A DNA stretch of 64,000 nt, from positions 1,922,001 through 1,986,000 of the forward strand of contig NZ_CP047957.1 in assembly GCF_014280035.1 (NCBI RefSeq), in the 5' to 3' direction. Below the pieces are notes generated by a model that was given only the letters and a program-made list of their open reading frames with translations, made no database searches and was not told the origin of the DNA. Positions 42,805 through 54,541 of this stretch are shown here, one piece after another. The position numbers and the translations under genes are program-made. The DNA is from Synechococcus sp. A18-25c (GTDB lineage Bacteria > Cyanobacteriota > Cyanobacteriia > PCC-6307 > Cyanobiaceae). Within the stretch, counting starts at the first letter, position 1; every line of letters begins with the position of its first letter.

Positions 42805-43352
42805 AGGCCATGCCGCTCCTCCATGCCATGCACGCGCTGCTGAAGGCCCTCGCCGCATTCGCTCTGATGCTCTGGTTGATGCCGGTGTCGGCCATCGCCC
42901 TCGACACCTCGGCAGGGGTGGGGCTGCAAGATCGAGCCCTGTTCCAGGAACGGGTCGACTACACCCTGACCAACCAAAGCGACGTGGACTTCCACGGACA
43001 GCAGCTCACCAATACCTCCTTCGCCGGTGCCGTCGGCCGTGGGGCTGATTTCAGCGACACCAACCTTTCGGGCGCAATTTTTACCCAAGGGGCCTTTGCG
43101 GATGCCAATTTTCATGGCGCCGACCTCAGTGATGCCCTGATGGATCGTGCCGACTTCACCGGGACGGATCTGCGCGATGCCCTGCTGGTGGGCGTGATTG
43201 CCTCCGGCAGCAGCTTCGCCGGAGCGCAAGTGGAAGGGGCTGATTTCAGTGATGCCCTCCTGGACCGCGATGATCAACGCCGCCTCTGTCAGGAAGCCGA
43301 AGGTGTCAACCCGGTGACTGGGGTGTTGACCCGCGACAGCCTCAACTGCTGA
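42801..43352 (+). CDS. Pentapeptide-repeat protein with signal peptide
   Basis: The protein has 183 residues from a GTG overlapping the folC stop; ATG at 42810 is the alternative. A signal peptide (ALLKALAAFALMLWLMPVSAIAL) is followed by A(D/N)LXX-type pentapeptides across residues ~70-150 (GADFSDTNLSGAIF, DALMDRADFTGTDL), which form a beta-helix. It is probably thylakoid-lumenal or periplasmic. Its 3' end overlaps the next gene by 11 nt. Confidence 0.85.
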   Translation: MKAMPLLHAMHALLKALAAFALMLWLMPVSAIALDTSAGVGLQDRALFQERVDYTLTNQSDVDFHGQQLTNTSFAGAVGRGADFSDTNLSGAIFTQGAFADANFHGADLSDALMDRADFTGTDLRDALLVGVIASGSSFAGAQVEGADFSDALLDRDDQRRLCQEAEGVNPVTGVLTRDSLNC

Positions 43353-44673
43353 ACCCGCCAAGCTTGCCTGGATTCAGCAATCCGGCCGGATCGAAACGGT
43401 GCTTCGTGGCCACCTGATCGCCATCGATCACTCCGAGGCCACCGCCCTCCACCGTGAGCTCATGGGGGTTGAAGATCAGCGCGCCTTGATCGCGGCATTG
43501 CTGGATCAGGCGCTCCAGCGCTTCTGCCCCTCGCCAACGCACCAGAGGCAGGGCCGCTAACCGCTGGGCCCCCTGCTGACGCACACCTTCCAGATGCCAC
43601 AGCAGATCGTCTCCCCAGGACTGTTTCAAGCTGTCCAAAAAGGCGAGCTCAGGCTGGGGCAACAGCATCTGCAAGTAGGTCCAGGCGGAATCCCGTTGCC
43701 GGAGATGCAAGGTGGTGTGGTTCCAGGTGAGCTCCTTCAAACCATTGCCGTGCCGATCGGCCTCGGAGCCCAGGTGGGTGACGACGGCTCCTGCTGCTGT
43801 CGCCAATCGGTGCACAGTGCTGACCGCATCAGGCGCCACAAGCAGCAACAAACGATCTTTCGCTGACACCGGCAGATCCCACTGGGGCAGCTGCTCCACC
43901 ACCGCTGCCTCCAACACCGTGCACAGGTGCAGGTCAATAGCCGCTGCACAGCAACGGCGCGCCAGCTCCACGGCCGTGGACCAATCAGGGCAGTCGACCA
44001 CCAGTTCCTGCCAAGCAATGCTCGGAGCAGTGGCCAACGTGAGAGCCGTCAGGATGCCGTTGGTGCCGTAGGCATGGTTGAGAGCTTCAGCTTCGGAGGC
44101 CTCGAGTTGAAGCACCCGGGGCTCCCGCTCCAGGGTCACCACCTCCAGCCCGAGCAAGTGCCCGGGATCGCGGAGAAATCCCCAGCGAACAGAACCAATG
44201 CCACCGGAGCCGCCAGCGATGAATCCACCGATCGTGGCGCTGCGCCAAGTGCTCGGCATCAACCGCAGCTGACGCCCCTGGGCCACAAGCTCGCGGTTCA
44301 GATCCTTCAGCAGACAACCGCACTCCACCGTGACGTCGCCTGTGACCGGGTCGATGGCACGCACGGACCGGAGATGGCTCATCAGCATCACCACACCGGC
44401 CTCGAGCGGAACACACTGGCCGTAATTGCCAGTGCCCGAACCACGCAGCGTGAGCGGCACGCCATTGCGCCGGCAGAGCCCCGCGACCTGCACCACCGCA
44501 TCGACGCTGTCAGGGCGCACCACCACATCGGCCCGACAATCCGCCAATCGCTCCCGCAGCACCGGCGAATAGTCGTAGGCATCGCGGGAATAACGCTCCA
44601 GGTCATCCGGCTCAGTCAGCACGCTCAGACCAGAGATGGCGGTCAGCTCGCTTCGCATGGCATTGGTCAGCAT
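43342..44673 (-). CDS. FAD-binding oxidoreductase (GlcD-like)
   Basis: The protein has 443 residues. The PCMH-type FAD site (DVVVRPDSVDAVVQVAGLCRRNGVPLTLRGSGTGNYGQ, split here by residue runs) and ATIGGFIAGGSGGIGSVRWG are clear. The C-terminus ends with a typical DPAGLLNPGKLG. It probably oxidises a 2-hydroxyacid, as glycolate oxidase subunit D does, but the substrate is unknown. Confidence 0.8.
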   Translation of the reverse strand: MLTNAMRSELTAISGLSVLTEPDDLERYSRDAYDYSPVLRERLADCRADVVVRPDSVDAVVQVAGLCRRNGVPLTLRGSGTGNYGQCVPLEAGVVMLMSHLRSVRAIDPVTGDVTVECGCLLKDLNRELVAQGRQLRLMPSTWRSATIGGFIAGGSGGIGSVRWGFLRDPGHLLGLEVVTLEREPRVLQLEASEAEALNHAYGTNGILTALTLATAPSIAWQELVVDCPDWSTAVELARRCCAAAIDLHLCTVLEAAVVEQLPQWDLPVSAKDRLLLLVAPDAVSTVHRLATAAGAVVTHLGSEADRHGNGLKELTWNHTTLHLRQRDSAWTYLQMLLPQPELAFLDSLKQSWGDDLLWHLEGVRQQGAQRLAALPLVRWRGAEALERLIQQCRDQGALIFNPHELTVEGGGLGVIDGDQVATKHRFDPAGLLNPGKLGGFSS

Positions 44674-44727
44674 CAGGCTCCCCCCTCACGCACGGTCGAT
44701 TGAATCTGAAACCGGCTGATCTTCAAC

Positions 44728-44812
44728 CCACTGTTGTTTAATCCACTGCTGTTTAACCCACTGTCCCTGAACCTACGGTCCCTGAACCTACGGTCCCTGA
44801 ACCCACTCTCCC
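44728..44812. repeat. 15-bp tandem repeat (five units plus a partial)
   Basis: Units begin at 44728, 44743, 44758, 44773 and 44788, with a partial sixth from 44803. Units four and five are identical (CTACGGTCCCTGAAC); the others differ at a few positions. The unit length is a multiple of three. Units four and five each carry CTA, a stop (TAG) on the minus strand in frame with the amidohydrolase. Confidence 0.85.
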
Positions 44813-46044
44813 CCAGCCAGCACACCCCGCGCGCTGGGAATGGCCAGCAATTCCGGCCAGCCCCCTTGCTGGAGATGGATCAGATCCGCTGGAGCACCGA
44901 TGCGCAGCACGCCATCCCAAGCGAGTCCCATCAGCTGAGCCGCATCGGTCGTGAAGGGCTTCAAACCATGGTGATCCCAGGGAGCGAGCTGCGCGAGGGG
45001 CAGGCTCATGGCCATCAACGCCAACGGATCAAGCTGCCCACCGGGGAACCAGGGATCCTGAACGTTGTCGCCACCGACCGCCACACGCAAACCAGCAGTC
45101 TGCAGCTGTCGGATCGGTGCCAACGGTCGACGCAGAGGGGTGTTGTCGCCTTGGCGACCGAGCAGCCAGCCATTGGTGAGCGGCAGGGCGACCACCTGCA
45201 GCTGCTGACGCGCCATCCGATCGCTCAGATGCCGCAGAGGGCCATCACGCAGAAGCGCCAGGCTGCTGGCATGGCTACAGGTCACCGGGACCGACACCTC
45301 CATGCTTTCCATCACCCGCAGAAGCTGACGCATTCCTGCAGCCGGATGTGAGGAGGCCTCATCGATATGAAGATCGACAGGGCACCCAAGCTGATTCGCC
45401 AGCTCCAGCAGCCGTCGCAGGCCACGTCGTTCTTGTCGACCTCGACAAGGAGGCTGGATAAAACCACCGAGGGCACCACCGGCCGCAGCAACCGTGGCCG
45501 CCAGCTGCTCACCATCGCGGGTCGACCAATGCTCCACCGGCACAAGTGCCACGAGTTGCAGCTCCAGACGATCAAGCCATTGCTGGCGCAGGGCGGTGAG
45601 CGCCTCCCAACTGCAGGCAGCACCGGGCCCGACACTGTCGATATGGCTACGAATGGCTCTCAGACCATGACGCCACGCCAACTGAAGCGCACGCTCGCCG
45701 CGGGCCTGCACCTGTTGGAGGGTGCGCGTCTGATGCTCTCGGTAGTTGGCCGCTAAAGCCGCCGCAAACGTGCCGTCGGGGTTGGGATGGTCCTTCCAGG
45801 AAAAGGCTTTATCCAGGTGAGCATGGGGCTCCACCAGCCGCGGCAGCACCAGGCCCTCGGCTTCCGGCACAGGATCGACCGCATCGATCACCCCTTCTCG
45901 CCAACGGATCGAGACGGGAATCAGGCCATCTGATCCCGCGGCTGTCGGCACATCAACGGAGTTCCCGAGGGCGGTCTCAAGAAGCAACCGGGGGCAGCGA
46001 GCCTTCAGTGCACCGGAGCGAGATGTCTGCAGCATTGAACTCAT
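44788..46044 (-). CDS. CodA-like amidohydrolase (cytosine deaminase family)
   Basis: The protein has 418 residues. Metal-site motifs RLVEPHAHLDKAF, DLHIDEASSH, VTCSHASS and GGDNVQDPW fit the cytosine deaminase branch of the amidohydrolase superfamily; the substrate could be a pyrimidine or related cyclic amide. Its stop codon is inside the 15-bp repeat. It overlaps the DUF4359 gene by 4 nt. Confidence 0.78.
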   Translation of the reverse strand: MSSMLQTSRSGALKARCPRLLLETALGNSVDVPTAAGSDGLIPVSIRWREGVIDAVDPVPEAEGLVLPRLVEPHAHLDKAFSWKDHPNPDGTFAAALAANYREHQTRTLQQVQARGERALQLAWRHGLRAIRSHIDSVGPGAACSWEALTALRQQWLDRLELQLVALVPVEHWSTRDGEQLAATVAAAGGALGGFIQPPCRGRQERRGLRRLLELANQLGCPVDLHIDEASSHPAAGMRQLLRVMESMEVSVPVTCSHASSLALLRDGPLRHLSDRMARQQLQVVALPLTNGWLLGRQGDNTPLRRPLAPIRQLQTAGLRVAVGGDNVQDPWFPGGQLDPLALMAMSLPLAQLAPWDHHGLKPFTTDAAQLMGLAWDGVLRIGAPADLIHLQQGGWPELLAIPSARGVLAGGEWVQGP

Positions 46045-46469
46045 TCGCGATCGCCATCCTTGGAGTAGGCATTCAGCATCAGAAACTGACCGGCAATGCC
46101 CAGAGTGGTGACGCGATAGCTCGGAAGGCGCAGGCTGGGGAGAAGATCCTGACCGCCAACCTCAGTCACATAAACACTGGCCAGTCCGAGATTCCAACGT
46201 CGGGTGAATTGATCGGCCAGAGTTGCCAAGACTGTTTGTTGATCAGCGATCAGACGCGGACAATCACTGATCCACAGCTGAAGCACCAAGGGCAGCACTT
46301 GCCTCTGGCAGATTTCTTCGGTGGCCAGGCTGACCAACTGACGGCCGGCAAAAGCGCTGTAGTCCGATCGGCTCGGGTTGGAGAGGGCAAGCGCAGCACC
46401 ACTTCCGGCCAGCAGCAGCGCTGATGCAACGAGAGTTGCGGAAGGCCAGCGCCTGCGAGGCGAAGACAT
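46041..46469 (-). CDS. DUF4359 family protein
   Basis: The protein has 142 residues. An N-terminal membrane anchor (ATLVASALLLAGSGAALAL) is followed by a domain with YSAFAGRQLV and a closing LPSYRVTTLGIAGQFLM, as in the cyanobacterial DUF4359 family. The function is unknown. It is the first gene of a two-gene unit with the amidohydrolase. Confidence 0.75.
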   Translation of the reverse strand: MSSPRRRWPSATLVASALLLAGSGAALALSNPSRSDYSAFAGRQLVSLATEEICQRQVLPLVLQLWISDCPRLIADQQTVLATLADQFTRRWNLGLASVYVTEVGGQDLLPSLRLPSYRVTTLGIAGQFLMLNAYSKDGDRE

Positions 46470-46512
46470 GCGCTTGGCCAGTGAAGATGAATTGGTAGAT
46501 TCTTACCGACGC

Positions 46513-46586
46513 GGCGGGCGTCGCCAAGTGGTTAAGGCAGCGGCTTGTGGCGCCGCTATTCGGGGGTTCGAATCCCCTCGCTCGCC
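46513..46586 (+). tRNA. tRNA-His (anticodon GTG)
   Basis: The 74-nt gene includes the extra 5' G at 46513 paired with C73. The anticodon loop TTGTGGC gives GTG, and the T-loop is TTCGAAT. All stems pair with single wobbles. Confidence 0.95.
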
Positions 46587-46608
46587 CTTTCACCTCATCA
46601 CCTTGGGG

Positions 46609-47670
46609 TCATGGGGTCATCAAGGCTTCCAGTAGACCATCCGCTCCATGACGGATCGGATCTCTGCAGACCAATCCGAGTTGATCACTGAGCTGTTGAC
46701 TGAGGACAGTGGCCTCGGATTCGTCCAAACGCGCGGTGTTCAGGGCCAGCGCCCGCACTTTCGGTGGGGGTTCACCGCCGACTGGACGGCCGATCGCAGC
46801 CAAGGACTCACAGAGCGCAATCAGCTCCTGCAGCGGTGGCAAGGGAATCTGCGGGACCCGTTCGATGCGCGTCTGCTGCGCCCGATGCACCATCAACAAG
46901 GCCGTCGGCTGGCTGCCTCGAAGCAACGGCAGGGTGGCCGTGGAGCCTGGATGGCAGAGGGACCCTTGCCCTTCCACGAGCACCAGCCCGGTGTCAGGCA
47001 GCGTCGACGCGGCAGCCGTCACCGCAGCTTCAACCGCCCCAGCGGCGTAATCCACGCGCACCGCATCCAAAGGAACGCCCGTCCCACTGATCAGGATCCC
47101 AGCCTGACCGGTGCCGACAAAGGCTGAGGGCACGCCGGCACGAAGCGCCGCCTCATGCACAGCCAAACAGGCACTCATCTTGCCGACGGCCATGTCCGAA
47201 CCAACGGCCAGTACGCGCTTGCAGGGCAGATCGGCAGCGCGCGCTTGCGCCACCTGAAGAACCGCGGGTTCCCGGCGCAGATCCCAGATCCAACGTCCAG
47301 GCTGCACCGCTGCATGCAGCACTGGGTCATCGTCTAGCCGGGTGTGAAGACCACTCGCGAGGGACAAGCCGGCCTCAAGGGCGGCCAGCACATCCGCACG
47401 CATCGCCTCTGGAAGCACCCCACCGGAGGGAGCCAAACCCACCACCGCAACGCGGGGGCCATAGGGCAGCGCAGCAGCCAAGTCCGCCACCACTGGCACG
47501 GACCGGGCAATGCCGGTGACGTCTTGAAGCCGTTCGCCGGCATGGGCGGGGTCGATGACCGCCACAATCGGTCCCTGCCGGTACCGCAGCATCGCCAACC
47601 CCGTTTTGCCGGTGAGGCTGTCGAGTCCACCGTGCTGAAGCAACACCACGGGATCCTGCGCCTTCAGCAT
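46609..47670 (-). CDS. DUF1611 protein, DgcN-like (putative D-glutamate N-acetyltransferase)
   Basis: The protein has 353 residues. A Rossmann-like N-terminus is followed by the P-loop-like DUF1611 domain (VLAVGSDMAVGKMSACLAVHEA, GTGQAGILISG, LVEGQGSLCHP). DUF1611 proteins of this type paired with a dipeptide-epimerase-like partner are named DgcN and are linked to D-glutamate catabolism in marine bacteria. The pair here overlaps by 7 nt. The role is inferred from family and pairing. Confidence 0.72.
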   Translation of the reverse strand: MLKAQDPVVLLQHGGLDSLTGKTGLAMLRYRQGPIVAVIDPAHAGERLQDVTGIARSVPVVADLAAALPYGPRVAVVGLAPSGGVLPEAMRADVLAALEAGLSLASGLHTRLDDDPVLHAAVQPGRWIWDLRREPAVLQVAQARAADLPCKRVLAVGSDMAVGKMSACLAVHEAALRAGVPSAFVGTGQAGILISGTGVPLDAVRVDYAAGAVEAAVTAAASTLPDTGLVLVEGQGSLCHPGSTATLPLLRGSQPTALLMVHRAQQTRIERVPQIPLPPLQELIALCESLAAIGRPVGGEPPPKVRALALNTARLDESEATVLSQQLSDQLGLVCRDPIRHGADGLLEALMTP

Positions 47671-48752
47671 CCCCGTCCCTCGTGAAGATCAATGCCGAGC
47701 CCAGGGGCGGCGGGAACCCTGAGCCGATCCTCATCGAGCTGAAGGCCCGAGTAGGGATCATCAACGAGATTCAGATGGCTGTCGAGATCAGGCCAGCGAA
47801 TGAACGGCAGCAACTGGGCCGCTGCTCCATTCAGCAGCGAACTGTCGGAATAACAGCCCACCATCAGATCGAGCTTGAGCCGCTGGGCCACGCGGGCCAT
47901 CAGCAAGGCTTCCGACAAACCTCCTGTTTTCAGCAGCTTGAGATTGACTCCATCGACATGGGGCGCGAGGCGCAGCAAATCCTCAAGCGACCAACAGCTT
48001 TCATCGGCCACCAGCGGCATGGGGCAATGCGGTTGCAGGGCCGCAAAACCCGCGGCATCACGTTCAGGGTCCCGTTGGGCAGCCAACGGCTGCTCAAGCA
48101 GCACCACATCGGCACGCATCAGATCAGTGACCATGGCTTTCGCTTGATCCAACGTCCAACCACCGTTGGCATCGACCTGAAGCTCCACAGCCCCACCGGT
48201 TGACTGCCGCCGGCTCTCCAGCGACTGGGCAACAGCGACCAGCAGAGCGCGATCGTGATCCAGCCCATCTGGACTGCCGAGCTTCAACTTGATGCGGGTG
48301 GCAGGCACTTGGTCCCACCAGCGCTGGAGGCGCTGCAGCACCGCCTCAACCGGTGCCAGCCCCAACGTGACGCTGGTGGCGACGGCCACCGATCCATCCA
48401 GGGCACAGAGCCGCCAGATCGGTTGCTGCAACGACTTGCCCCACCAGTCCCAGAGGGCCAGATCCACCGCACAGCATGCAGGCGGCGACAAGCCGCGCAA
48501 GCAGGCATCAAAGCCATGGCGATCGCGAGGGTTGAGCGCATTGAGCCTGGGCAACAAGGCCTGAAGCTCCGCTTCGATGCCCGCCAGCTGGTAAGTGCGG
48601 TGGCCGGTGTCGAGGCCACCTGTTTCACCCCGACCGATGACGCCGTCATGGTCGAGGCGCAGCTCCAGTCGTTCAACCGCTGCGGTGGCGCCCCGGCTGA
48701 TGGCCAAAGGGACCGCTTTGGTGAGCGGAAACCGACGCAGTCTCCAAGCCAT
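47664..48752 (-). CDS. Enolase-superfamily epimerase, DgcA-like / L-Ala-D/L-Glu epimerase
   Basis: The protein has 362 residues from the ATG at 48752. The catalytic lysines in TRIKLKLG and later LKLLKTGG, and the metal ligands in LQVDANGGW, LLEQP and ADES, follow the muconate-lactonising subgroup. Relatives are dipeptide epimerases or, when next to DgcN, N-acetyl-D-glutamate racemases. It is upstream of and coupled to the DUF1611 gene. Confidence 0.78.
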   Translation of the reverse strand: MAWRLRRFPLTKAVPLAISRGATAAVERLELRLDHDGVIGRGETGGLDTGHRTYQLAGIEAELQALLPRLNALNPRDRHGFDACLRGLSPPACCAVDLALWDWWGKSLQQPIWRLCALDGSVAVATSVTLGLAPVEAVLQRLQRWWDQVPATRIKLKLGSPDGLDHDRALLVAVAQSLESRRQSTGGAVELQVDANGGWTLDQAKAMVTDLMRADVVLLEQPLAAQRDPERDAAGFAALQPHCPMPLVADESCWSLEDLLRLAPHVDGVNLKLLKTGGLSEALLMARVAQRLKLDLMVGCYSDSSLLNGAAAQLLPFIRWPDLDSHLNLVDDPYSGLQLDEDRLRVPAAPGLGIDLHEGRGC

Positions 48753-48882
48753 GGCGGGCTTGCACCAATCCTCAAGCTGGCATGCGAATGATGCAACCAG
48801 CAAATCAGTTACGGAAGAGACAGACCAGCCGCTTTTCCAGCAGTGAGATCAATCAACTTCCTTTTAAGCATCCCCCACATCC

Positions 48883-50715
48883 ATGGGAAACCGCGTGGTG
48901 AACTCCTCGGCAATTCAGCAAATCATGGAGGATGTTCATGCACGCTTCAGAGATCTTCGCGACGGTCGGCCAGCTGACTACATCCCTGAATTAGCCAAGG
49001 CCAATCCCGACGATTTCGGCATCGTCATCGCCACCACCGATGGTCGCCTTTACGAAGTAGGAGATACAGCGAAGGACTTCACGATTCAGTCGATCTCCAA
49101 ACCATTTGCGTTTGGGCTAGCCCTGAAGCTCCTCTCCTCAGAACACATGCTCGCGAAGGTGGGAGTTGAGCCTTCGGGAGATGCCTTCAACGCCATCAGC
49201 CTTCATCCGGTCACGGGGATTCCCCGCAACCCGATGATTAATGCCGGCGCCATTGCCACCACTGCCCTGATCTGGGCCCACGATCCCGAACGAGCGGAAT
49301 CGCTCCTACTGGATTTCCTCTCCGATATGGCTGGTAACCGCCTTTCTGTTGACGAAGACGTATTCCGCTCCGAGCGAGACACCGGACACCGCAACCGGGC
49401 AATCGGGTACCTGCTGCGCAACTCCGATGTGATCACATCTTCACCAGAGCAAGCGCTGGAGCTGTATTTCCGACAGTGTGCAGTGTCGGTGAGCTGCCGC
49501 GATCTTGCTGTTATGGCGGCCACTCTTGCCTGTCAAGGGCGAAATCCCATCACGAACGTGGTGGGTCTTGATGCCATGTGCAACACCGATGTCCTCGCGG
49601 TGATGGGCAGCTGCGGCATGTACGACTACACAGGCCAGTGGCTCTACAACGTGGGCATGCCTGCGAAGAGTGGTGTCGGCGGTGGCGTGATGGCCGTCGT
49701 GCCTGGGCGCCTTGGCATTGCTGTCTACTCACCGCCCCTGGATACCTACGGCAACTCCTGCCGAGGCATCGCTGTTTGTGAGGAGCTGTCGAAACGACTC
49801 GAACTGCACCTCTTTAACCAGCCCAATCGCGCTGGAACGGTCATTCGTTCCTCCACCAATGGCCAAAAGCGCTATTCGCGGCGCTGGAGAAGCAAAGTCG
49901 ATTTAGATCTCCTGAAAGAGCACGGCGAGAAGATCAAGGTGATGCAGGTTCAAGGGGTTCTTGACTTTGCAGCCGTAGAAGAACTGCTGGCCCACCTCGA
50001 AGGCAGCACGACGAATGAGTCGTTCGTCGTGCTCGACCTGGCCCAAGTGTTGGCGTTACCGAAAGTCAGTATCCGATTACTTCGCGATGCCCTCAGCAAC
50101 CTGCAAAAGCAAGGCATTTATTGCCTGGCATGTCGAGGCGAACACCTCAAAAATTTCTGGCCAACGAAGGAAAGCGAAGCCGAGGGCTGGTTCGAAAGCC
50201 TCGATAGGGCACTGGAAACGGTCGAGAACCGCCTCCTAGAGCAGCTGCACTCCACACAGGGTGGCGAACGACTCCCCAACAACTCCATCACCTTGTTGGC
50301 AGACCTCGGCGAGCAAACCAGGTCTCGTTTGATGGAGCTCCTGGAGCGACGCCATTACAGCCGCAACGATCTGCTGTGCCGCAAAGGTGATGCAGGATCG
50401 GAACTCTTTTTAGTGGAGACGGGCCTTATCAGTGCAGGAATCAACAGTTCGAAAGCAAGCAAACGGATCCGCTTCGCCACATTCAGCTCAGGTGTGTGCA
50501 TCGGTGAAATTGCCTTTCTCAACAACCTGCCCCGCACCGCCGACCTCGTGGCTGATGAGGACAGCACCTGCCTTGTGCTCCACCGCGACACCTTCGAGCA
50601 ACTTCAGCACGAGGAGCCGGAAGTTGCGATCGACATGCTCTTGGCCCTCCACCGCGACGTAGCACGCAAGGTGGATCGCGCCAATCAACAGCTCAGCCTT
50701 CTGGAGCAGCGATGA
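48883..50715 (+). CDS. glsA: Glutaminase with STAS and cyclic-nucleotide-binding domains
   Basis: The protein has 610 residues in three parts. Residues 1-~315 are a beta-lactamase-fold glutaminase with the SISK motif (Ser70, Lys73), MINAGAI and [13 protein letters not shown]. Residues ~345-455 are a STAS domain ([11 protein letters not shown]..., [13 protein letters not shown]). Residues ~480-600 are a cNMP-binding domain ([37 protein letters not shown]). It hydrolyses glutamine to glutamate and ammonia, probably under nucleotide or partner control. miaB follows closely. Confidence 0.92.
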
Positions 50716-50747
50716 CCTTGGGCGGGCCAATGTCCGAGACTGGCATC

Positions 50748-52151
50748 ATGACAGTTTCATCGTTAACGAAACCACTGGCTGGAGCCGCATCATCTCCCTC
50801 CAACCGAGGCAGCTACTGGATCACCACCTTCGGCTGCCAGATGAACAAGGCGGATTCCGAGCGGATGGCGGGGATTCTGCAATCCATGGGCTACCGGGAG
50901 GCGAGCGCCGAACTGGATGCCGATCTGGTGCTGTACAACACCTGCACGATTCGCGACAACGCCGAGCAGAAGGTCTACAGCTATCTGGGCCGTCAAGCGC
51001 AACGCAAACGGACGAACCCGAATCTCACCCTGGTGGTGGCCGGCTGTGTGGCTCAGCAAGAGGGCGAATCCCTCCTCAGGCGAGTGCCAGAGCTGGATCT
51101 GGTGATGGGGCCGCAGCATGCCAACCGACTGGAGACCCTGCTGGAACAGGTGGACAGCGGCCAGCAGGTGGTCGCCACCGAAGAGCACCACATCCTTGAA
51201 GACATCACCACCGCCCGGCGCGACAGCAGCATCTGCGGCTGGGTGAACGTGATTTACGGCTGCAACGAGCGCTGCACCTACTGCGTCGTGCCCTCGGTCC
51301 GAGGCAAGGAGCAGTCACGACTTCCAGAGGCCATCAAGCTGGAGATGGAAGGACTTGCGGCCCAGGGCTACAAGGAAATCACCTTGCTAGGGCAGAACAT
51401 CGATGCCTACGGGCGAGATCTGCCGGGCATCACCCCGGAAGGACGCCGGCAGCACACGCTCACCGATCTGCTCCATCACGTGCATGACGTGGAGGGGCTT
51501 GAACGCATCCGTTTTGCCACGAGCCACCCGCGCTATTTCACCAATCGCTTGATTGATGCCTGCGCCGAGCTCCCGAAGTTGTGCGAGCACTTCCACATCC
51601 CCTTCCAGAGCGGCGACAACGACGTGCTGCAGGCCATGGCTCGGGGCTACACGGTAGAACGTTATCGACGGATCATCGATTACATCCGCGAACGGATGCC
51701 CAATGCGGCATTGAGCGCCGATGTGATCGTGGCCTTCCCAGGTGAAACCGACGCGCAATACCGACGCACCCTGGATCTGATCGAGGCGATTGGCTTCGAT
51801 CAGGTGAACACGGCTGCGTACTCCCCTCGCCCCAACACACCAGCAGCGAACTGGAACAACCAACTACCGGAAGAGGTGAAGGTGGCTCGGCTGAAGGAGA
51901 TCAACGCCCTGGTGGAGCAGTGCGCCCGCAAGGCGAATGCCCGCTACCAGGGCCGCACCGAGGAAGTGCTGGCGGAAGGCATCAACCCGAAGGACCCCAC
52001 CCAGCTCATGGGACGGACCCGCACCAACCGACTCACCTTTTTCAGTGCAACCGGAGCTGACGGCCAGCGTTACCAGGCCGGTGATCTGGTGAACGTGCAC
52101 ATCGATGCCGTGCGCTCCTTCTCCCTCAGTGGCACTCCCATGCACAGCTGA
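50748..52151 (+). CDS. miaB: tRNA-i6A37 methylthiotransferase MiaB
   Basis: The protein has 467 residues from ATG 50748; ATGs at 50712 (overlapping the glsA stop) and 50730 are alternatives. The MTTase domain with [14 protein letters not shown], the radical-SAM cluster [11 protein letters not shown] and a C-terminal TRAM domain are intact. It adds a methylthio group at tRNA position 37. Confidence 0.95.
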
Positions 52152-52189
52152 TACCTTTCAGGTTCGCTTGTTGAGTCAACGGCCAGACC

Positions 52190-53251
52190 ATGCCGACTTC
52201 CCTTCTCCGCGTTGGCGTGGTGTTCGGAGGGGCATCCGGTGAACATGACGTGTCGATCCGATCGGCAACAACCGTGATCCGGGGCCTGTCCGACCCGATC
52301 CATCAAGAGCGGTTCCAGGTGATCCCCATCTACATCGACCGCGAGGGTCGTTGGTGGCCTGAATCCGTGGCCCAACAGGTGCTGGACCAAGGGCGAGCGC
52401 TTGCGGCCGAGGAACTCCCCGAACCACTTCCCGCTCCTGGGCTGCGCCAGATTCCTGTGGATGCCAACAGCATCGACGTCTGGTATCCGGTGTTGCATGG
52501 GCCCAACGGTGAAGACGGCACGGTGCAGGGCCTCTTCACCCTGATGCAACAGCCGTTTGTCGGATCCGGCGTTCTGGGTTCCGCCGTTGGCATGGACAAA
52601 CTGGCGATGAAAGCCGCCTTTGCCGCGGCTGGAATTCCCCAGGTTCCTTACCTGGGACTGAATGCTTCCGAATTGCAGGATCCCGAGCTTTTAGAGCGGC
52701 TACTGAACCGCCTGGAGAACGACCTGGGCTACCCCTGCTTCGTAAAGCCCGCCAATCTCGGTTCATCCGTCGGCATCAGCAAAGTGCGCAACCGCGATGA
52801 ACTGCTGGAAGGCCTGCATCAGGCTGCAAGGCTCGATCCCCGTGTGGTGGTCGAGCAAGGCGTGAATGCACGGGAGCTTGAATGTGCCGTGCTTGGCCGC
52901 AGCACGCTCAAATCATCGGTGGTGGGTGAAGTGCGCTTCGACTCCGACTGGTACGACTACGAGACGAAATACACCGAAGGGCTCAGCCACACGCTGATCC
53001 CAGCGCCACTGCCAGCCTCGGTGACGCAACACATTCAGGCCATGGCCATCCGTGCCTGCCGGGCGGTCCATGCCTACGGCCAAGCCCGGGTTGATGTGTT
53101 CTACGACGAAGAGGAGGGCCACATCTGGCTCAATGAGATCAACACCCTTCCTGGGTTCACCTCTCAGAGCATGTACCCCACGTTGTGGGAAGCCTCTGGC
53201 ATTGGTTTGCCACAGCTGGTGGCGGAGCTGGTGGAGTCAGCGCGAGAATGA
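52190..53251 (+). CDS. ddl: D-alanine--D-alanine ligase
   Basis: The protein has 353 residues. [44 protein letters not shown] and [16 protein letters not shown] are the diagnostic ATP-grasp motifs. It supplies D-Ala-D-Ala for peptidoglycan. It opens a ddl-hypothetical-ftsQ-ftsZ run. Confidence 0.96.
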
Positions 53252-53276
53252 GCCGACCGCCGCTGGTGCCGCCGCA

Positions 53277-53687
53277 ATGATGCATGGCTTGCTCTGGATC
53301 CCGCTGCTGCTGGCGTTCGTGATGCTGGCCGCTCTGGGCTGGCTGGAACGTCGGCGCCAGAACCTCTTCCGGGTGTGGAGCGACTCCGCAGAACTGGCCA
53401 AGCTCGACGGCTGTGGCGCCGCCAAACTCAAGGATGGGGAATTGTGCTGGAGCAGTTTCCACGCAGGCAGTTTCAAAGAGGAAGGGCGCTTCGTCATCAA
53501 CAGCTTGGAGGTGGTGGAGCTGATGTCGCTCGCCTCCGGCGAAGCCCCACTGGCGGATGAATCCCAAGGGCAATGCCGACTGCGCTTGATCGGCGAAAAC
53601 CAGCAGATGGATGTTCCTTTCTCCGATGCGGACCGGGCTCGAGGCTGGATGAATCAATTAATGATGAAGGCTCGCTGCGATCTGTGA
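53277..53687 (+). CDS. Hypothetical protein with N-terminal anchor
   Basis: The protein has 136 residues from the first of two adjacent ATGs. One N-terminal helix (LLWIPLLLAFVMLAALGWL) is followed by a small soluble domain with LCWSSFHAGSFKEEGRFVI and RLRLIGENQQMDVPFSD. Its stop overlaps the ftsQ start (TGATG). Location suggests a division or envelope link; no family is recognised. Confidence 0.7.
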   Translation: MMHGLLWIPLLLAFVMLAALGWLERRRQNLFRVWSDSAELAKLDGCGAAKLKDGELCWSSFHAGSFKEEGRFVINSLEVVELMSLASGEAPLADESQGQCRLRLIGENQQMDVPFSDADRARGWMNQLMMKARCDL

Positions 53688-54541
53688 TGGCGCGAACCAA
53701 GCCAGGAACGCGTGAGCCCCGAAGCACAGGTCCTATGCCTCCTGGCGTGGAGCGTCGCCGCCGGCTTCGCCAGGAACGACGACGCGACCGGCTGATTCAG
53801 ATCTGGAGGATCACGGTGTTCAGTGGCAGCGCTGCGGCACTGGCATGGCTATTGGTTGGTGCCGGCTGGAGTTTGCGATCACCGAAGCAGATCTCCGTTC
53901 AGGGGAGCGCCCGCTTGGGCACTGATGCGGTCGTCCAGGCCGCCGGTTTGCGCTTCCCACGCCCACTGATCACGCTCGAACCCGCACGGTTGGAACAGCG
54001 GCTGATGGCGGAACTCCCCGTTCAATCGGTCTCCGTGCAACGTCGCCTGCTGCCTCCGGGCCTTGACATTGCCCTTGAAGACCGGCGCCCGATTGCCGCC
54101 GCCAGCCGAACCGGCGCTCGCGGCAGGGAGCAAGGCATGGTGGATCGAGAGGGCAACTGGATGCCGCTCACGGTGGCGCGCCAGGGGGAAGCGCCTGCCA
54201 CGGCGGTTCGCGTCGAGGGTTGGATTCCGAGTCGACGCGCTGTCATCGCGTCTGTGCTGGAGCGTCAAGATCAGCTGGGCAGTCCCCTGCTGTTGATCCA
54301 GATCGCCCCCGATGGGGACATCAGCCTGCGCACCAAAGCGCTGGGCCTGATCAAGCTCGGTTCCAATCAACAGCTGCTGGACCGGCAGCTGAATACCATC
54401 GCTCTGCTGTCCAGCAGCCTGCCGGACAACCTGCGCGGTCAGACCAGTAATGCCATTGATCTTTCGGATCCCTCGAAGCCGGAACTGCAACTGAAACCGG
54501 AACCCAAGGCAGCAGAGGAAGCGAAAACGAGCAAACCCTGA
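53687..54541 (+). CDS. ftsQ: Cell-division protein FtsQ
   Basis: The protein has 284 residues. A basic cytosolic tail (ERRRRLRQERRRDRL) and one transmembrane helix (ITVFSGSAAALAWLLVGAGWSL) are followed by a POTRA domain (RSPKQISVQGSARLGTDAVVQAAGL) and a beta domain. It links FtsZ to the periplasmic division machinery. The Lys/Glu/Pro-rich C-terminus is species-specific. Confidence 0.85.
   Translation: MARTKPGTREPRSTGPMPPGVERRRRLRQERRRDRLIQIWRITVFSGSAAALAWLLVGAGWSLRSPKQISVQGSARLGTDAVVQAAGLRFPRPLITLEPARLEQRLMAELPVQSVSVQRRLLPPGLDIALEDRRPIAAASRTGARGREQGMVDREGNWMPLTVARQGEAPATAVRVEGWIPSRRAVIASVLERQDQLGSPLLLIQIAPDGDISLRTKALGLIKLGSNQQLLDRQLNTIALLSSSLPDNLRGQTSNAIDLSDPSKPELQLKPEPKAAEEAKTSKP

Follow-up and report, generated by a model that had tools for sequence, protein, structure and literature searches.

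A DUF1611 gene and an enolase-superfamily epimerase gene form a conserved pair in cyanobacteria, related to DgcN-DgcA

Introduction

DgcN and DgcA, reportedly described by Yu et al. in 2023, are the closest described counterparts of two adjoining genes that we examine here, one encoding a DUF1611 protein and the other an epimerase of the enolase superfamily. The genes lie on a stretch of 64,000 nucleotides (nt), the window, in the single-contig, 2.51-Mb genome of Synechococcus sp. A18-25c. According to excerpts of three studies, DgcN and DgcA could turn D-glutamate (D-Glu) into N-acetyl-L-Glu in another bacterium (PMC11747546), an irreversible racemisation pathway has dgcN as its key gene, no cyanobacteria being named among the carriers of dgcN in the excerpt (PMC12363236), and DgcN-DgcA is very likely the main route for D-Glu in Shewanella psychrophila WP2 (PMC10845958). 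A further excerpt notes Ala-Glu epimerase genes in cyanobacteria (PMC3605383). We found no publication tying DgcN, DUF1611, N-acetyl-D-Glu, the solved structures or D-glutamate use to cyanobacteria, a weak negative in that the subscription literature lay mostly outside the coverage of the search. We report that the two genes constitute an old, conserved two-gene module which is kept or lost together across cyanobacteria.

Gene pair in the window and its distribution

The epimerase gene comes first and the DUF1611 gene second, on the minus strand. The features of the pair are as follows.

46609-47670, minus strand: DUF1611 gene, 353 amino acids (open reading frame with Pfam DUF1611_N and DUF1611_C; NCBIfam DgcN)
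47664-48752, minus strand: gene of an enolase-superfamily (MLE subgroup) epimerase/racemase, 362 amino acids (MR_MLE domains; NCBIfam DgcA)
47664-47670, minus strand: 7-nt overlap of the epimerase stop and the DUF1611 start, read from the sequence
47176-47202, minus strand: Walker-A-like loop GSDMAVGKM, residues 157-165 of the DUF1611 protein, from the alignment
48693-48695, minus strand: codon of Arg20 of the epimerase, from the alignment
48282-48290, minus strand: KxK motif, Lys155/Lys157 of the epimerase, from the alignment
47781-47789, minus strand: DxD motif, Asp322/Asp324 of the epimerase (DLDSH in the cyanobacterial type), from the alignment
48753-48882, no strand: divergent spacer of 130 nt, from the epimerase start to the ATG of a glutaminase gene at 48883

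The reading frame of the epimerase is open up to 48803. Its relatives begin at the codon corresponding to the ATG at 48752, and we placed the start there, which gives the 7-nt overlap and the 130-nt spacer. The sequence-only reading of this DNA had described the same overlap, with a glutaminase gene diverging from the pair at 130 nt between starts, and the sequence confirms both.

The two genes occur together with few exceptions. Among 194 genomes of the phylum, with the epimerase called at E <= 1e-30, both genes were found in 55, the DUF1611 gene alone in none, the epimerase gene alone in one (G083; G and L numbers are our handles for genomes and loci) and neither in 138. A substantial DUF1611 domain was accordingly counted in 55 of the 194 genomes and the epimerase in 56, and the association had a Fisher p of 5e-48, no correction for common ancestry being applied. 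The count excludes six genomes whose DUF1611 matches were short or weak and six whose epimerase matches were weak. Judged by eye from the coordinates, the two genes share a contig and lie no more than about 3 kb apart in 50 of the 55 genomes; in the remaining five (G041, G063, G075, G090 and G214) they lie apart, yet both are kept. The recurrence of the pair across the phylum makes its arrangement more than chance.

Within the genus, 24 of 31 genomes carry both genes, on the same strand and within about 1.1 kb (by eye), and no genome has one of them intact while lacking the other. The 24 include G014, which is 58% complete and has its epimerase gene in two pieces at contig ends. Remnants of both genes were seen in G027 and G028 and of the epimerase gene only in G012, and neither gene was found in G013, G016, G017 and G025. 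Elsewhere, in G203 (C1:2888875-2889475), one of the 55 phylum genomes counted as having both, the DUF1611 gene is split across two frames and the epimerase frame is still open.

We also examined named loci, the best 80 of at least 580 confirmed relatives, a sample which favours close relatives. The epimerase gene lay less than 200 nt upstream of the DUF1611 gene in 62 of the 80 and further off in 5, and was not in the stretch in 13; with starts chosen by script, 55 of 67 loci had an overlap of 1-20 nt. Loci with the pair belong to Cyanobacteriota and also to Planctomycetota, Myxococcota, Bacteroidota (Flavobacteriaceae) and Pseudomonadota. The order is reversed, DUF1611 before epimerase, in family f35 of the phylum (L075 and L076). 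Outside Cyanobiaceae, no third neighbour occurred in more than 15 of 55 loci drawn from these best 80, and the commonest third-gene cluster (15/55) is on the opposite strand and looks like Nostocales synteny. This neighbour clustering split the epimerase itself (main cluster 29/55), and other genes may be missed by it.

DUF1611 protein

The DUF1611 protein possesses the Pfam domains DUF1611_N (95.9 bits) and DUF1611_C (220.8 bits), and its best NCBIfam model is DgcN (NF041892), with 221.6 bits and an E value of 1.3e-65 over residues 63-350. The predicted structure (predicted local distance difference test score, pLDDT, 94.8) was compared with solved proteins. It matched 2obn, Ava_3511 of Anabaena variabilis (Z 48.1, 51% identity; phmmer 340 bits), 2g0t, Thermotoga TM0796 (Z 37.9), and 7xrj, which is titled N-acetyltransferase DgcN-25328 (Z 37.5, root-mean-square deviation 2.9 over 329 residues, 35% identity). 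The next P-loop proteins followed at Z about 13, among them dethiobiotin synthetase (3of5, Z 13.2). The modelled fold is that of the solved DgcN.

The primary structures were aligned in groups: the cyanobacterial type, DgcN paired with an epimerase, and a second type (type 2) whose genes stand beside a racemase gene of another family. In the Walker-A-like loop, G157, D159, G163 and K164 are invariant in all groups aligned. Altogether 32 positions are common to all groups, and 10 further positions are shared by the cyanobacterial type and paired DgcN, not fully by type 2.

P-loops usually have Ser or Thr after GK, where the DUF1611 protein has Met165 (codon at 47176-47178). Met was present in 28 of 28 rows with an enolase-type epimerase gene adjoining or in the locus (19 of the cyanobacterial type, 2 from f35 and 7 DgcN, including three closely related Vibrio rows). 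Lys stood there in all 4 DgcN-like rows that lack an adjoining epimerase gene, and Arg in all 4 rows with an ornithine-racemase-like gene next to them. One of the Lys rows, L062, has a dipeptide epimerase gene three genes upstream. Two rows without a known partner, L060 (Arg) and L192 (Met), were left out of the count. The residue after GK may thus mark the racemase partner, which we offer only as a lead, because clades and residues coincide.

Epimerase

The epimerase possesses MR_MLE_C (102.2 bits) and MR_MLE_N (27.3 bits) domains. Its best NCBIfam model is DgcA (NF042940; 160.6 bits), and the dipeptide-epimerase models (NF011708, NF041118) gave lower scores, far under their own cut-offs (YcjG 105.4 against 343 bits, Thermotoga 82.1 against 500). 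Sequence identity to annotated DgcA is 28-31%. The predicted structure (pLDDT 94.8) matched dipeptide epimerases, muconate cycloisomerases and N-acylamino acid racemases alike, with Z of about 40-45.

The residues expected of DgcA were then read from the alignment. The KxK and NxK motifs, the metal ligands, DxD and the Arg of DgcA are all kept in the window epimerase, and equally in YcjG of E. coli; in window numbering, Arg20, Lys155, Lys157, Asp194, Glu220, Asp250, Lys272, Asp322 and Asp324 are common to the three proteins. We take the catalytic lysines to be the acid-base pair, and Arg20 presumably corresponds to Arg24 of YcjG, binding the side-chain carboxylate of Glu. Of 30 rows, 29 have Arg at position 20 and one (L122) has Tyr; in a wider set of 37, all 36 rows covering the stretch have Arg, the other (L062) being truncated there. 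All rows have DLD, and the next two residues are SH in the cyanobacterial type, GP in DgcA and YcjG, and GH in L075/L076; relatives from Bacteroidota and Pseudomonadota combine GCM.ES with DLDSH. A comparison of the active site with DgcA and with dipeptide epimerases had been suggested for telling the two apart. The DgcA positions did prove to be kept, but their presence in YcjG leaves them non-discriminating.

Proposed function

We start from what is observed: the homology and fold of the proteins, the conservation of catalytic residues, and the coupling and joint inheritance of the genes. On this basis we propose that the pair may be a self-contained module working like DgcN-DgcA, probably on D-Glu, a reading in which our confidence is about evenly balanced. 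Its substrate (D-Glu), its acyl donor, the way in which the reaction runs and what becomes of the product are our inferences. The DUF1611 protein would transfer an acyl group, most likely acetyl, from its coenzyme A (CoA) thioester to D-Glu to form N-acyl-D-Glu. Enzymes of the enolase superfamily carry out 1,1-proton transfer with two lysines, the carboxylate of the substrate being held on Mg2+. One lysine of the epimerase would take the alpha proton of N-acyl-D-Glu and the second would return a proton on the other face, giving N-acyl-L-Glu. The product could be deacylated to L-Glu or, taking into account that the genome has an ArgJ gene, could enter arginine synthesis. A gene of the Asp/Glu-racemase family is also present in the genome and could supply D-Glu for the wall.

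Several results weigh against this proposal. Both proteins score under half the cut-offs of their best models (480 bits for DgcN, 400 for DgcA), which the Vibrio pelagius controls pass (DgcN 507.7 bits, DgcA 416.2 bits). YcjG, a dipeptide epimerase, also passes the DgcA cut-off (424.1 bits). In quick trees, the window DUF1611 protein falls in a 32-row clade (98), where its nearest named row is the metagenome-assembled genome Synechococcus sp. MED650, apart from a 9-row DgcN-like clade (100) and also from type 2; the deep branches of this tree are weak. In the epimerase tree, YcjG groups with two Vibrio DgcA rows (Shimodaira-Hasegawa approximate likelihood-ratio test, SH-aLRT, 87) and the window clade lies outside, so that the window epimerase does not group with DgcA to the exclusion of dipeptide epimerases. 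Seven fixed residue differences separate the cyanobacterial-type DUF1611 from paired DgcN, and the cyanobacterial epimerases have GCYSDS and DLDSH where DgcA and YcjG have GCM..(S/T) and DLDGP. Four of the six genomes set aside for their DUF1611 matches (G160, G161, G171 and G183) narrowly pass the Pfam cut-off of 25, with 26-31 bits when neighbouring pieces are included, and are without the epimerase; counting them in, exceptions to pairing amount to 4 of 59. No NtcA box (GTAN8TAC) is present in the window, including the stretch upstream of the epimerase gene with its 130-nt spacer; among 89 upstream stretches at other loci, 3 contain such a box. In annotated dgcN-dgcA loci (Vibrio, Sphingobium plasmids), dgcN is first in 5 of 5 and a LysR gene lies upstream in 4 of 5, whereas in the window the order is reversed and none of the seven neighbours scanned with Pfam is a LysR gene.

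The controls also bear on the models themselves. Vibrio DgcA passes the cut-off of the YcjG model (365.2 against 343), and YcjG passes both models. As each protein passes both cut-offs, the NCBIfam models fail to separate DgcA from dipeptide epimerases. Taking the tree grouping into account as well, the annotation border between the two looks unsafe (YcjG, L077 3431-4396; Vibrio DgcA, L057 4845-5810). Homology alone cannot fix N-acetyl-Glu as the substrate, because YcjG has the same residues and passes the DgcA cut-off.

A second possibility is that the epimerase is an L-Ala-D/L-Glu epimerase acting on murein dipeptides in peptidoglycan turnover. The DUF1611 protein would then act on another murein-derived compound or resemble a ligase that depends on ATP. 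The identity with YcjG at the catalytic positions, at DxD and at Arg20, and the overlap of the DgcA and YcjG models, would fit a dipeptide epimerase. So would the best sequence match in PDB, the dipeptide epimerase 3jva, the fold match to 3ijq, a Bacteroides thetaiotaomicron dipeptide epimerase with L-Ala-D-Glu (Z 42.5), and the likeness of the DUF1611 P-loop domain to dethiobiotin synthetase. On the other hand, the epimerase strictly co-occurs with a DgcN homologue, whereas a control search of E. coli, the source of YcjG, brought up no DUF1611 match; the dipeptide-epimerase models score below DgcA; and the seven scanned neighbours include no murein peptidase or amidase. By the general rule for P-loops, Met after GK would also be unusual in a protein using ATP. 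We regard a murein dipeptide epimerase as doubtful.

Alternatively, the pair might acylate and racemise another acidic D-amino acid, or use another donor (succinyl- or propionyl-CoA; D-Asp or D-Gln). The fixed positions at which the clade departs from DgcN and DgcA would agree with this, as would the N-succinyl-Arg/Lys racemase 2p88, among the best folds for the epimerase (Z 44.2), and the type-2 DUF1611 genes beside an ornithine-racemase-like gene, by which partners, and probably substrates, vary within the DUF1611 family. The conservation of Arg20 in nearly all relatives argues for Glu, and a different substrate or donor seems quite unlikely to us.

Returning to a module acting on D-Glu, an extended form of the proposal would be an ancient cyanobacterial D-glutamate shunt that delivers N-acetyl-L-Glu into the arginine pathway directly, with the residue after GK marking the racemase partner. 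We judge this extension unlikely. If it held, D-Glu from cell walls or dissolved matter would be turned into arginine, and reserve polymers, bypassing free L-Glu. For the simpler proposal, if true, the pair in 55 of 194 genomes of the phylum and the 2007 structure 2obn would gain a testable role, and phototrophs would join the recyclers of D-glutamate, an amino acid of cell walls that occurs in marine dissolved organic matter.

Glutaminase and surrounding genes

The neighbours of the pair are the following.

48883-50715, plus strand: gene of a glutaminase A-STAS-cyclic-nucleotide-binding protein, 610 amino acids; an optional neighbour, judged outside the module
50712-52151, plus strand: miaB, overlapping the glutaminase gene by 4 nt (TIGR01574, 447.4 bits, above the cut-off of 355.3)
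46514-46587: tRNA-His, inside a nine-gene block around the pair

Pfam bore out the domains assigned to the glutaminase protein in the sequence-only reading (glutaminase 379.1 bits, STAS 25.3 bits against a cut-off of 22.6, cNMP_binding 61.6 bits), and the glutaminase A model TIGR03814 matched residues 12-311 with 345.6 bits (cut-off 255.4). From the 4-nt overlap, cotranscription of the glutaminase gene with miaB is predicted. The same reading had placed ddl at a distance from the locus, but ddl starts 1.5 kb past the glutaminase gene, after miaB.

We considered whether the three genes form one glutamate-salvage locus, fed with D-Glu and glutamine, in which a regulated glutaminase is co-expressed with the pair from a divergent promoter. 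The glutaminase gene stands divergent beside the epimerase gene in 14 of 300 family genomes, from 8 genera (13 found by script and G298 by locus; in G405 the glutaminase part alone matched), and the genome has two class III cyclase-domain genes, so that cyclic nucleotides may exist. On the other hand, the glutaminase is present in only 1 of 31 genomes of the genus against 24 with the pair, and 53 of the 67 family genomes that have it do not have it beside the epimerase; in the phylum it occurs in 64 of 194 genomes. It is also missing from G023, the closest relative that has the pair, whose epimerase is 93% identical. The glutaminase gene also overlaps miaB rather than the pair, and its position is explained by a conserved block. 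A three-gene locus thus appears very improbable. Of the three genes, whose co-occurrence had been suggested as a check, the pair is co-inherited and the glutaminase is not. As a third member of the module, the glutaminase was ruled out by its distribution, despite its recurring position.

The block runs flavin adenine dinucleotide (FAD) oxidase-amidohydrolase-DUF4359-DUF1611-epimerase-(glutaminase)-miaB-ddl-FtsQ-type POTRA gene, and its order is kept both with and without the glutaminase. Among 22 stretches of at least 12 kb, miaB was present in all 22 and the amidohydrolase and FAD oxidase genes in 19 (not in L088, L095 and L096). Since the block is conserved either way, the position of the glutaminase says as little on function as that of miaB. 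The recurrence at this place is not a chance insertion; the position is conserved, yet the glutaminase gene itself is optional and the module does not require it. In the window, this nine-gene block spans 43342-54541, with a GlcD-like FAD oxidase and a cytosine-deaminase-like amidohydrolase among its members, and its order is largely kept in Cyanobiaceae.

In two genomes of genus g99 (L195 in G465 and L197 in G389), a glutaminase 93-94% identical to that of the window lies far from the pair and has the initial 56 codons of miaB behind it; the miaB of these genomes themselves (residues 26-477 aligned) adjoins their own pair. The stub trailing the displaced copies is a sign that the glutaminase gene may have moved by horizontal transfer out of a locus like that in the window.

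Comparison with known systems

Compared with DgcN (EC 2.3.1.312; NF041892; 7xrj), the window protein shares the DUF1611 fold over nearly its whole length, the GTDxxVGKM-type loop, TGQ, EGQGSL and other invariant positions, as well as an adjoining racemase partner. It differs in its score below the cut-off, its own clade, its place as second gene of the pair and the seven fixed residues. The epimerase resembles DgcA (EC 5.1.1.25; NF042940) in its MLE subgroup, catalytic lysines, metal ligands, DxD and Arg, and departs from it in falling below the cut-off and outside the group of DgcA and YcjG, and in the GCYSDS/DLDSH signatures. As in the DgcN-DgcA operon, the gene of the other enzyme adjoins, here with the 7-nt overlap. 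The gene order and the scanned neighbours are unlike that operon, and the arrangement that had been likened to it is in this respect its reverse. At two loci, a D-amino-acid transaminase gene follows dgcA (L189 5311-6168, annotated; L063 5850-6767, NF005209 380 bits, cut-off 320).

With L-Ala-D/L-Glu epimerases (YcjG; 1jpm; 3ijq), the window epimerase shares the fold and, as read for YcjG, the catalytic and substrate-positioning residues; the lack of a DUF1611 match in the E. coli control and the lower scores of their models set them apart. Ava_3511 (2obn), released in 2007 as a DUF1611 family protein with no function in its title, is of the same type as the window protein by sequence and fold.

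Type-2 DUF1611 genes, in Phaeobacter, Vibrio cyclitrophicus and three Cyanobiaceae, resemble the window gene in standing directly before, and overlapping, a racemase-like gene. They are unlike it in their pyridoxal-phosphate-type racemase (Ala_racemase_N), their GKR loop and their distant clade. These loci are L068 (G003), L069 (G022), L071 (G204), L061 (Phaeobacter) and L194 (Vibrio cyclitrophicus). Ala_racemase_N was found in the four tested with Pfam, and Orr was the best NCBIfam model in the two partners tested (295.1 and 269.1 bits, cut-off 480). DUF1611 proteins thus seem to partner racemases of unrelated families; if the proposed function is true, this would suggest that they are acyltransferases serving racemases of several families.

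The description of the two genes as a DgcN/DgcA-like pair therefore stands as far as homology and a conserved two-gene module are concerned, and does not extend to membership, in view of the cut-offs, clades, gene order and scanned neighbours. On these sequence comparisons, the pair appears to be a sister variant of the DgcN-DgcA module, rather than a member of it by test, with an unusually strict co-inheritance.

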